Part shown: positions 38,177-41,881 of the stretch, one piece after another
How the letters are laid out: the number at the start of each line of letters is the position of its first letter
Position numbering within the stretch: position 1 is the first letter of the stretch
Origin: Rathayibacter tritici
GTDB lineage: Bacteria; Actinomycetota; Actinomycetes; Actinomycetales; Microbacteriaceae
NCBI RefSeq assembly: GCF_002932875.1
Contig: NZ_PSWS01000025.1
Span: 1-47,683 of the forward strand
Direction of reading: 5' to 3'
Length of the DNA: 47,683 bases
Program-made: the position numbers and the translations under genes
The notes under the pieces: model-generated
Seen by the model: the letters and a program-made list of their open reading frames with translations, nothing else
The model's database searches: none
Told to the model about the DNA's origin: nothing

Positions 38177-39792
38177 AGCACACGCTCCAGCTGCTCGCGC
38201 ACGACCGCCGCGAGGCGGTCGGACTCGTCCATCGCCGCAAGAAGCTCACCGCGCAGGCGCGCGATCTTCTCCTCCAGCGGCTCACCGTCATCGGCCAGCT
38301 CGGCCGCTCCAACGTAGCGCCCTGGCGTGAGCGCGTAGTCGTTCGCCGCGATCTCGGCGTTCTTCGCCGAGTAGCAGAATCCGGCCTTGTCCTCGTAAGC
38401 GACTCCGCCGGCAGACCGTGTCCCGCGCCAAGAGTGCACTGTCCCCGCGATCGTCGCGATGTCCTCGTCGCTCAGCGCCCGCTCAGCGCGATCAACCATG
38501 TAGCCCATATTCCGCGCGTCGATGAAGAGCACCTCGCCGCGGCGATCGGTGACGCCTCCAGGCCCCGGCGTCTTGTCCTTTGCCAGGAACCAGACGCAGA
38601 CCGGGATGCCAGTGCTCCGGAACAGCTGCGTCGGCAGAGCGACCATGCACTGCACCAGATCGGCCTCGACGAGCTGCGCGCGGATGGCGCCCTCGCCGCC
38701 GGAGTTCGACGACATCGATCCATTCGCCATCACGATGCCGGCGCTGCCGCCGGGCGCGAGCTTCGAGACGATGTGCTGGATCCACGCGTAGTTCGCATTG
38801 TTCGCCGGCGGCACCCCGTAGGTCCAGCGCGGGTCCTCCTCGTTGCGGGCCCAGTCCTTCACATTGAACGGCGGGTTCGCGAGGACGAAGTCGGCCTGCA
38901 TCTGCGGGTGCTGGTCTCGGCGGAAGGTGTCCTCCCAGCGCGGGCCGAGATTGCCGTTGAGCCCGTGAATGGCGAGGTTCATTCTCGCCAGCCGCCACGT
39001 CCGCTCGTTGAGCTCCTGCCCATAGACGGAGAGGTCGCTGCCCTCGCGGTCGTGCGCCTCGAGGAACTTCTCGGTCTGCACGAACATGCCGCCCGACCCG
39101 CAGCACGGGTCGTAGATCCGGCCCTCGTGCGGCTCGAGCACTTCGACGAGCACCCGAACCACGCTCGACGGCGTGTAGAACTCGCCGCCGCGCTTGCCCT
39201 CGGCGCGGGCGAACTTCTCGAGGAAATACTCGTAGACCTCGCCGAGCAGATCGCGAGCGCGCGTTGATCCCTCGCCGGTGAAGCGCGCCGAGTTGAAGAT
39301 GTCGACGAGTTCGCCGAGGCGGCGCTGGTCGACGTTGTCGCGGTTGAAGATCTGGGGGAGCGTCCCTGTGAGTCCTTCGTTGTACTTCATGAGCAGCCCC
39401 ATGGCACCGTCGATGAGCTCGCCGACGGACTGCGCGGTCGTCGAGCCGTACGCCTCAGTGCCTTTCGCGTTCTCGGCGAGGTGACCCCACCGCGCCTCCG
39501 ACGGCACCCAGAACACTCCGCGGCCCACGTACTCGTCGACGTCGTCGATCAGCTCGGCGATCTGGTCGTCATCGAGGCCGTCGGCGGTCAGCTCCGCGTG
39601 GATCTGGGCGCGTCGCTCCTCGAAGGCGTCTGAGACGTACTTGAGGAAAACGAGCCCGAGGATCACGTCCTTGTACTGCGAAGCGTCCATCGACCCGCGG
39701 AGCTTGTCGGCGGCCTTCCAGAGCGTGTCCTTCAGTTCCTTCATCGTCGATGGAGCGAGGGGGACGGCGGTCTTGGCGATGCGGGGTGCCAT
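38173..39792 (-). CDS. hsdM: type I restriction-modification methyltransferase subunit (HsdM)
   Basis: A 539-residue N6-adenine methyltransferase. An N-terminal HsdM helical domain (about 15-150) is followed by the Rossmann methyltransferase core with motif I DPCCGSGG (228-235) and catalytic motif IV NPPF (306-309). The region MVALPTQLFRSTGIPVCVWF also lies in the expected place. The C-terminal tail (LEEKIARLRGELLAAMDESD) contacts HsdS in this family. The ATG shares its A with the TGA of the preceding HTH gene (TGATG), and the 3' end overlaps hsdS (ATGA). It modifies host DNA and is required for restriction. Confidence 0.95.
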   Translation of the reverse strand: MAPRIAKTAVPLAPSTMKELKDTLWKAADKLRGSMDASQYKDVILGLVFLKYVSDAFEERRAQIHAELTADGLDDDQIAELIDDVDEYVGRGVFWVPSEARWGHLAENAKGTEAYGSTTAQSVGELIDGAMGLLMKYNEGLTGTLPQIFNRDNVDQRRLGELVDIFNSARFTGEGSTRARDLLGEVYEYFLEKFARAEGKRGGEFYTPSSVVRVLVEVLEPHEGRIYDPCCGSGGMFVQTEKFLEAHDREGSDLSVYGQELNERTWRLARMNLAIHGLNGNLGPRWEDTFRRDQHPQMQADFVLANPPFNVKDWARNEEDPRWTYGVPPANNANYAWIQHIVSKLAPGGSAGIVMANGSMSSNSGGEGAIRAQLVEADLVQCMVALPTQLFRSTGIPVCVWFLAKDKTPGPGGVTDRRGEVLFIDARNMGYMVDRAERALSDEDIATIAGTVHSWRGTRSAGGVAYEDKAGFCYSAKNAEIAANDYALTPGRYVGAAELADDGEPLEEKIARLRGELLAAMDESDRLAAVVREQLERVL

Positions 39793-41804
39793 CAGCTGCC
39801 TTTCTGTGCGGTGCCGTCGACAGTGTCGACGGCGGTCTCGGTGCGGGTGGGAAGAAGAGGGTGGCGGATGCTGCCGTGCACGGCGCCGTCCGCGATCAGG
39901 GTTTCGAGTTCGTCGAGGGCCCGGAGGCGGCGCTCAGTCTCGGTCCGCAGCTCGATGATGCGGGAGAGCGCCGATACCAGGGGCGGGATGCGCTCGGGGA
40001 AGACCCGGCGCACCGTCCAGTCGCGCCATCGGCGGGAGCCCGGCGGCCGGGCGGCGATGTCGGCTGCGAGCAGGTCGGGGACCAGTCCCGATGAGGGGTC
40101 GACGATCGAGAGGATGCGGGCGGGGTAGGCGACGACGGAGCCGCCCTCGTCATCGACGATTGCGGCGAGCGGCGAGGTGCAGAAGACGACGTCGCCCGGC
40201 TGCGTGCGCACCGATCGCGCGTGGGCTCGCTCGAACTCGAGGATCCCGACACGCCGCGAGCCCCGACCGGTCTCGCCGAGGAGCTCGGGCACGCCGAGCA
40301 CGACGTGGCCCGTGGTGCCGATCTCGGTGTCGGCGAGGCGGGTGCCCGCGCGGTAGCGCAGGGACTTCGAGGTGCACAGGCCGCCGATCGAGTCGGAAGC
40401 GAGCGCCGCGACTTCGGTGTCGGCCGCCACCGGTTCGGCGGCCAGGTCCGCGGCGTCCTCGCCGATGATCGCCAGCAGCTGCTCGATGCGGACGGCTCGT
40501 GCCGCGGCGGCGTCGAACGGGACGCGGCCCACCCTCGGCCCGCGACTTCGCTGCGTGAGGAGGGAGCCGGACCGGGCGAGCACCGCGGAAGCAGGCTCAA
40601 CGCGTCCGACGGCGAAGGCGCGTGCCTTCAGGTCGGCGGCCCGGCCCATCGTGGCGTAGACATCGCCGACGACGAGCGCCCGCACCGCCGCGTCCAGGGG
40701 CTGCTCGCCGACGTCCGCGAGCAGCGTCCACTGCCGCCCCTCCTCGACCCTGCCGTCGGCGGGGCCCACGATCCAGAGGGCGAGAGCCTGGCGCGGATGG
40801 GCGGGCAGGAGGCCCTCCGGGAGCCGCACTACCGCCCGGACCCGTCCGTCGCGCAGAGCGGAGCGCCGGAGATTCGCGGTGGGGGCGGGTAGGCGATCGC
40901 AGAGCGCGGCCGCCGGCCCGATGATCACTCCGCGCTGAGTGGTCGGCATGCCGAGGAGGAGCTCGTCGACTGCCTCCAGGACGGGGCCGGCCGCGGTCGT
41001 CATCGCGCCCTCGTGCGGGAATTGCGCGACGAGCGTCTCCACCGCGCTGCCGCTCAACTCCTCGTCGCGGCTGCGGTCGCGCCAGCGGACGCCGTGGGAG
41101 GAGAGCCGCCGGCGGGCGCTGCGTCCGGCGCCGGCGTCGGACGGTGCGCCGAGGACGACCTCGACCTCGCCCCCGTCGCCCGCGCGGATGACGACGGACA
41201 GGACGAGCGCTCCGCAAACGCCGGTCGGGTCGACCACGGTCCCGGCGGTGTCGCCTCCTGCGAGGACGAGGGCGATGTCGGCGACGAGAGCCGCCGCCTC
41301 CGGAGCCAGATTCGTGCGGTCGGCAGCAGCCGGTCGGGCCCGATCGAAGGCGGTGCCGGGCGTCCAGGCGGCCTCGACAGCGGCATCGGCTTCTTGCGCG
41401 GCCGGCTCCAGTCGGGCCCCCAGGGCCTCGATCTCGGAGAGGAGGAAGGCGTCGCCGGGGTCGACTGCCCGCGCTGCAGCGAGGAGGTCGTCAACGGCGC
41501 TCAGCTCCTCGCCCAGCTGCGCCCGCAGAGCCACGAGCGCGTCGAAGGCATCGGGTTCGCGGTTCGCGGTCCGGCCGAAGGAGAGGGCGTCGGCGGACGC
41601 CTCGGGGTTGTTGCCCTTCGCGGTGACGGCGAGCCACTCCGAGACGTCGCTCGCGGCGAAGCGCTCCGAACCGGTGCGGCCCGATACCGGCGCGGGGAAC
41701 GGTGCGGTGCCGCCGCGACCGCGAGAGCGCCAGACGGAGACGGTCGGGCGTGTGACGCCGGCGAGCGCGGCGATGTCGGACAGGGACAACAGGGTATCGA
41801 TCAT
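39792..41804 (-). CDS. HTH / degenerate N6-methyltransferase / TRD-like protein heading the type I RM operon
   Basis: A 670-residue protein; ATG 41804 has GAGGAGG four bases upstream. Residues 6-26 are an HTH (LSDIAALAGVTRPTVSVWRS), with a winged extension to about 60. Residues about 165-365 track an HsdM-like core. A motif-I-like DPTGVCGAL lies at 192-200 and VRLPEGLLPAHPRQALALWI at 326-345, the counterpart of LPTQLFRSTGIPVCVWF in HsdM. The NPPF catalytic motif is missing; QFPHEG occupies the expected place. Residues about 480-645 resemble an HsdS recognition half, with a closing helix (LSRIIELRTETERRLRALDE). The product may regulate the operon, act as a non-catalytic partner of HsdM/HsdS, or bind target DNA. 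Its one-base stop/start overlap with hsdM implies stoichiometric translation. Confidence 0.75.
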   Translation of the reverse strand: MIDTLLSLSDIAALAGVTRPTVSVWRSRGRGGTAPFPAPVSGRTGSERFAASDVSEWLAVTAKGNNPEASADALSFGRTANREPDAFDALVALRAQLGEELSAVDDLLAAARAVDPGDAFLLSEIEALGARLEPAAQEADAAVEAAWTPGTAFDRARPAAADRTNLAPEAAALVADIALVLAGGDTAGTVVDPTGVCGALVLSVVIRAGDGGEVEVVLGAPSDAGAGRSARRRLSSHGVRWRDRSRDEELSGSAVETLVAQFPHEGAMTTAAGPVLEAVDELLLGMPTTQRGVIIGPAAALCDRLPAPTANLRRSALRDGRVRAVVRLPEGLLPAHPRQALALWIVGPADGRVEEGRQWTLLADVGEQPLDAAVRALVVGDVYATMGRAADLKARAFAVGRVEPASAVLARSGSLLTQRSRGPRVGRVPFDAAAARAVRIEQLLAIIGEDAADLAAEPVAADTEVAALASDSIGGLCTSKSLRYRAGTRLADTEIGTTGHVVLGVPELLGETGRGSRRVGILEFERAHARSVRTQPGDVVFCTSPLAAIVDDEGGSVVAYPARILSIVDPSSGLVPDLLAADIAARPPGSRRWRDWTVRRVFPERIPPLVSALSRIIELRTETERRLRALDELETLIADGAVHGSIRHPLLPTRTETAVDTVDGTAQKGS

Positions 41805-41881
41805 CTCGCCTCCTCGTCTGGTGCCCATCCGGGCTGATGAGTCGAAACTAGCTTGTCGAGTACCGACCGCGTAGCCCTTGT

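Follow-up and report, generated by a model that had tools for sequence, protein, structure and literature searches.

A methyltransferase-derived helix-turn-helix protein as a probable autoregulator of a type I restriction-modification operon in Rathayibacter tritici

The control of type I DNA-defence operons of the kind considered here is, to our knowledge, poorly known. Among the closest described systems, and as far as the excerpts of the cited papers extend, the C5 type II methyltransferases M.SsoII, M.Ecl18kI, M.EcoRII, M.MspI and M.ScrFIA carry a fused helix-turn-helix (HTH) domain and control their own gene (PMC3978073, PMC12707154), and the C proteins of type II systems activate themselves (PMC3874152, PMC12707154). 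In type I operons, RptR is described as a 9-kDa repressor acting on 6-bp palindromes at a site that overlaps the -10 element (PMC12255303), and HsdC as a C-protein homologue acting on direct repeats that overlap the -10 element, some of its homologues being fused to modification subunits (PMC5282649). Here we consider a 47,683-nt stretch of Rathayibacter tritici DNA (assembly GCF_002932875.1, contig NZ_PSWS01000025.1), termed the window, in which the minus-strand open reading frame (ORF) 39792-41828, termed X, heads a type I restriction-modification operon. No X-like protein is named among the titles and beginnings of abstracts listed in literature searches that mostly excluded subscription papers, and none is described in the available excerpts of PMC12255303, PMC5282649, PMC3978073, PMC3874152, PMC12707154 and PMC3850674.

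We consider it likely that X is a dedicated autoregulator of its own operon, probably an activator, which descends from an HTH-methyltransferase-TRD (target recognition domain) protein that lost its catalytic motifs. The reading draws on comparative sequence evidence, namely the architecture and descent of X, its loss of motifs, its linkage to the operon, a conserved and near-unique site, a promoter with constant spacing, and two loci in which the HTH and the site have changed together; from these we infer that X binds the site, dimerises, and activates rather than represses from the predicted transcription start. The features concerned are as follows.

39792-41828, minus strand: gene X, encoding an HTH, a pseudo-methyltransferase and an HsdS-like half, 678 amino acids as ORF
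41604-41795, minus strand: HTH at the N-terminus of X (residues 12-75), with RPTVSVW as its recognition helix
40569-41336, minus strand: part of X with a methyltransferase-like fold (roughly residues 165-420), lacking motifs I and IV, from alignments and models
39999-40418, minus strand: TRD-like part of X, residues 471-610, from profile alignments
39876-39998, minus strand: long helix near the C-terminus of X (modelled at residues 611-651), resembling the HsdS spacer helix, from profile alignment and model
38173-39792, minus strand: hsdM, modification subunit, with N6_Mtase match and NPPF present
37010-38176, minus strand: hsdS, specificity subunit, with two Methylase_S stretches
33828-37010, minus strand: hsdR, restriction subunit, with Pfam match above cut-off
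41883-41898, no strand: predicted operator, palindrome GATAA-N6-TTATC, conserved in relatives
41845-41850, minus strand: predicted -10 element TAGTTT, 32 nt downstream of the operator, assigned from box spacing, with a putative transcription start near 41838

The four genes overlap in the order X-hsdM-hsdS-hsdR, X being first, and the stop codon of X and the start codon of hsdM share the sequence TGATG (39794 down to 39790), in agreement with an earlier note on this DNA which had described an HTH protein heading a type I operon and coupled in this way to hsdM. Direct reading of the sequence places AGGAGG before codon M9 of X (41804), which may be the genuine start rather than the ORF start. 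The hsdM, hsdS and hsdR products of the window all have Pfam matches above cut-off, and X has none to any family.

The linkage of X to such operons is regular. In all five plasmid records with a match (from Paenarthrobacter, two Arthrobacter and two Streptomyces) X lies directly before hsdM-hsdS-hsdR. A survey of 396 genomes from one order, which scored only two or three candidates per genome so that absences are soft, detected X in 34; among these, genome G386 carries a related but different protein (locus L069) and the contig of G297 stops shortly after X. Almost all hsdM genes at least 62% identical to that of the window accompany X (33/34, the exception being in G312), as against none of the 15 that are 52-56% identical. 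Extrapolated alignments put the start of hsdM no more than 64 nt from the end of X in 36 of 40 loci; the distance is larger in L067 (about 800 nt) and L068 (about 500 nt), L069 carries an hsdM of a different clade, and L070 is cut off by the end of its contig. A script picked a single start for each ORF; in L038, L046, L054, L057, L060 and L063, which have no start codon nearby, it took the frame opening and gave the first residue as M, making distances from the X start approximate in these loci; L005, with genes split in the record, was used in tblastn only. The survey of gene order that the earlier note had recommended thus found X regularly linked to type I operons. The operon can also exist without X, since the hsdMSR locus of G312 (L109:546-6627, minus strand), which belongs to the hsdM clade of the window, has neither X nor the site described below.

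The palindrome to which the earlier note had drawn attention upstream of X is exact in the window (GATAAGGGGCCTTATC, plus strand, 41883-41898), where no second match turns up even when one mismatch is allowed, and it recurs in relatives. In 35 of 40 loci GATAA-N6-TTATC precedes X with no more than one mismatch. Among the five exceptions, L054 carries a one-mismatch copy that lies 47 nt within the frame opening taken as start, L060 and L065 show two mismatches each, and the pattern was not found before X in L063 and L069. A stricter exact pattern, GATAASNNNNSTTATC, in which the spacer edges are G or C, is present in 41 of the 396 genomes (reversed-pattern control, 15/396). Genomes with X contain it in 22 of 34 cases, with 23 of the 24 sites directly upstream of X, and genomes without X in 19 of 362 cases, with 20 sites. 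The surroundings of 19 of these 20 sites (all but the second site in G084), inspected over as much as about 5 kb in either direction, contained no relatives of X or hsd genes. An earlier, smaller comparison had found the site in 22 of 33 genomes with X and in none of 33 without, a zero that was lucky in the light of the 396-genome sample. The predicted operator occurs about once per genome.

In 34 of 36 loci a TANNNT box begins 32-35 nt beyond the site (range tested 29-35 nt), whereas 500 shuffles gave 1.67 such loci on average and never more than 7 of 36 over the range 29-35 nt; the set of 36 omits the near duplicates L007 and L068 as well as L063 and L069, which lack the site. No -35 signal was detected in 34 loci, with a mean of 2.47 matches to TTGACA against 2.54 in shuffled sequence. 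If the box is the -10 element, the centre of the palindrome would lie about 53 bp upstream of the transcription start, and several loci have an ATG 6-7 nt past the box, an arrangement known from leaderless transcripts. Chance occurrence of the palindrome was ruled out by its conservation among loci, the genome-wide counts and the fixed spacing to the -10 box.

These data bear on whether X activates or represses. As an autorepressor, X would act at the same palindrome and keep the whole operon low until released, as proposed for RptR and the Mycoplasma HsdC, and one operator would suffice; both of those proteins head type I operons and, in the excerpts available, are described as repressors (PMC12255303, PMC5282649). 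Repression requires neither a site fixed at 32-35 nt above the -10 box in 34 loci nor the lack of a recognisable -35 element, and the RptR and HsdC sites, as given in the same excerpts, overlap the -10 element, unlike that of X (PMC12255303, PMC5282649). Activation would account better for the constant spacing and the absent -35 element, and we regard autorepression as unlikely.

A divergent upstream gene (L003:11052-11729, minus strand, and relatives) had tblastn matches in 17 of 41 loci; it lies about 2 kb away in L044, L047 and L056 and has no match in the window. Its product looks membrane-anchored and coiled-coil, by eye and from weak Pfam matches. In eight of 16 loci with this gene a second TANNNT box occurs 33-34 nt beyond the other side of the palindrome, which suggests that the divergent gene may be co-regulated with the X operon.

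Two loci indicate which part of X reads the site. The half-sites are GTTAA in L060 and GTTTA in L063, both with an N6 spacer, and in L063 a -10 box follows at 34 nt. The recognition helices of these proteins are RPAVSQW and RQAVTNW, respectively, such that the residue before the tryptophan is Q in L060 and N in L063, as against M, V or T in the other 35 of 37 aligned X proteins. With the loose pattern GWTWA-N6-TWAWC the L063 site is the sole match in its genome (G385), and the L060 site is one of seven in G357, where the reversed control gave eight. Since both loci with symmetrically changed half-sites have altered recognition helices, the HTH appears to read the site. It was also considered whether the TRD-like half, rather than the HTH, reads this bipartite sequence; L064, which is related to both and whose TRD-like part is among the closest to those of L060 and L063 (42% and 43% identity), keeps the usual helix and the usual site, which makes the TRD-like half the less likely reader. 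Together the site, the promoter spacing and this co-variation support the role of operon regulator that the earlier note had suggested.

The HTH is the most conserved part of the X family, with 46% mean pairwise identity over 28 loci. It gives an HTH_17 match below the Pfam cut-off (E 0.0099) and weak excisionase-type matches, and a mad1 (MADS) profile match (E 0.017) is restricted to 25 of its residues. In hhalign comparisons an X profile (leaving out L057, L069 and L070) matched the HTH-N6_Mtase-TRD proteins described below at 99.9% over 594 columns, with the same domain order over the whole length; the profile of the latter comprised seven sequences, L106 and L108 being omitted because they have no HTH and L103 being cut at an inner methionine. 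The HsdS profile matched whole X at 88.0% (172 columns) and its C-terminal part at 92.9% (171 columns), covering one HsdS half only, with HsdR as control at 0.1-0.2%. This supports the HsdS-like C-terminal end attributed to X previously, in which a TRD followed by a spacer helix, sequence-related to HsdS, is present as one half. Direct alignment with HsdM gave only 0.8%, and an N6_Mtase Pfam match is absent in X of the window, L004 and L006. A PDB sequence search yielded weak S-layer matches only, a phylum search matched one of 246 genomes, the centre genome itself, and a scan of viral contigs gave 56 pattern matches and no relative.

The methyltransferase part is degenerate. DPTGVCGAL, considered motif-I-like in the earlier note, does align with motif I (DPACGxG) of the HTH-methyltransferase relatives; it is no family trait, since DPTG is peculiar to the window X and other members deviate at this motif. 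The segment previously called HsdM-like, LPEGLLPAHPRQALALWI, aligns with LPGKMLPHVSVPLALLVL of the relative in L069, and the absence of NPPF or NPPY is borne out, as N/D-PP-F/Y is missing and the motif IV position reads AQFP. Two AlphaFold models of low confidence (mean pLDDT, the predicted local distance difference test score, of 52-53), built from only three sequences each, recovered a methyltransferase fold by Foldseek and VIA-align; type I M or M-S structures ranked first in Foldseek, the top row for the first model being PDB 7eew, a single-chain methyltransferase (MTase) of Vibrio vulnificus bound to Ocr. That X might be an active, if divergent, DNA methyltransferase whose motifs are unusual would accord with this modelled fold, and is very improbable given that the positions of motifs I and IV vary among the family members printed in the alignment. 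The best reading of profiles, models and motifs is that X descends from a single-chain HTH-M-S methyltransferase which lost the S-adenosylmethionine-binding motif I and the catalytic motif IV, in line with the catalytically dead methyltransferase with a recognition-domain-like end that the earlier note had described. A pseudogene was ruled out by dN/dS values of 0.16 and 0.21 in the two pairs compared, which indicate purifying selection.

The M- and S-like folds and profiles raise the alternative that X is a pseudo-M/S subunit which joins HsdM-HsdS and alters target or activity, regulation being secondary. X identity does track that of HsdM (r 0.82), and nearly equally that of HsdR (r 0.78), for which plain co-inheritance is enough; for the TRD-like part the values are 0.72 and 0.71. 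After accounting for HsdM, identity of the TRD-like part shows no correlation with HsdS TRD1 or TRD2 (partial r 0.04 and -0.07; 28 loci with X, M, S and R of usual length, L007 and L068 omitted), and it does not behave as the independently varying specificity domain that is typical of HsdS. A specificity-changing subunit, as envisaged in the earlier note, was rejected on these grounds, and the wider alternative, which also leaves the conserved site unexplained, is improbable.

An autoregulatory X would operate as follows. A dimer, probably held by the M/S-like body, would set two HTH domains on GATAA-N6-TTATC upstream of X-hsdM-hsdS-hsdR and, the promoter having a -10 box and no recognisable -35, would most likely activate it, giving a positive feedback loop of the kind known from type II C proteins, which in this case would cover M, S and R jointly. 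A delay of restriction on entry through X, another earlier suggestion, is possible; in the window the genes for X, M, S and R form a single overlapping, coupled operon, in which X could offset M from R in time only if there were internal promoters. More tentatively, the dead M/S body might be kept as a sensor that mimics or competes with the M2S core, and X and the Streptomyces HTH-M-S proteins might form one transcription-factor family, which we think rather doubtful; were it true, operon expression would be set by how much HsdM/HsdS is free, or by DNA mimics with which phages counter restriction and which bind such cores. The outcome is a candidate regulator, a near-unique site and a promoter geometry, all of which are directly testable.

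The idea that X is linked to another defence function found no support; the genes between hsdS and hsdR vary among loci. Related proteins occur there in five loci (L002, at 15487-17232, L042, L055, L060 and L064), the L002 copy matching SLFN_AlbA_2 and HATPase_c_4, and other loci have other genes, for example a small ORF pair common to L045 and L053.

The HTH-N6_Mtase-TRD proteins (L130-L159, L101-L105 and L107) occur in genomes of the G575 family, which we take, partly on general knowledge, to be Streptomyces. The L102 protein has a match at E 1e-20 in 46 of 61 genomes of this family, not all with an HTH. An HTH pattern fitted 24 of the 30 loci fetched; motif I, as DPA(C/A)G, is kept in 21 of the 24, and motif IV lacks N or D in all 24 (20 H, 2 R, 2 Q). 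Upstream of 19 of 28 such genes there is a TTCAC-N2-4-GTGAA palindrome in which no more than one position deviates (1.1% in shuffles), and in 18 of the 19 a TANNNT box follows after 21-25 nt, a spacing without shuffle control among interrelated genes, which would place the site near -41. No hsdMSR was recognised in the ORF lists of L102, L104, L105 and L107, where no search aimed at it was made. These loci are perhaps a second, larger family of methyltransferase-derived regulators, and the conserved site and -10 box before their genes suggest that the older state may have been an HTH protein of methyltransferase origin that regulates itself. L069 (3396-12079, minus strand) encodes an HTH-N6_Mtase-TRD protein with motif I intact and EPPF, followed by ORFs with weak similarity to HsdM, HsdS and HsdR (25-31% identity), and has the gene order of X loci, its head gene being less decayed. 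The findings also suggest an unusual evolutionary route by which a methyltransferase became a dedicated transcription factor, one that may be broader in actinobacteria.

Compared with known systems, X shares with the regulatory HTH-methyltransferases an N-terminal HTH, a methyltransferase fold and a conserved site at its own gene; those enzymes are C5 methyltransferases with intact motifs that repress their own gene, whereas X, of the N6-adenine M/S lineage, has no catalytic motifs, stands beside an intact hsdM and has its site in an activator-like position. With the C proteins it has in common that a dedicated HTH regulator in a restriction-modification locus has a palindromic site upstream of its own promoter, although C proteins are small and of the Xre family and X, at about 680 amino acids with an M/S-like body, heads a type I operon. 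RptR and HsdC likewise stand at the head of type I operons that have a conserved operator and, judged by their published descriptions, are set apart from X by its body, its site and the placement of that site. PDB 7eew, the top structural match, is an intact MTase according to its entry title. Closest in domain order, over the whole length, are the Streptomyces HTH-N6_Mtase-TRD proteins, which also have a palindrome upstream of their own genes and, unlike X, have mostly kept motif I.
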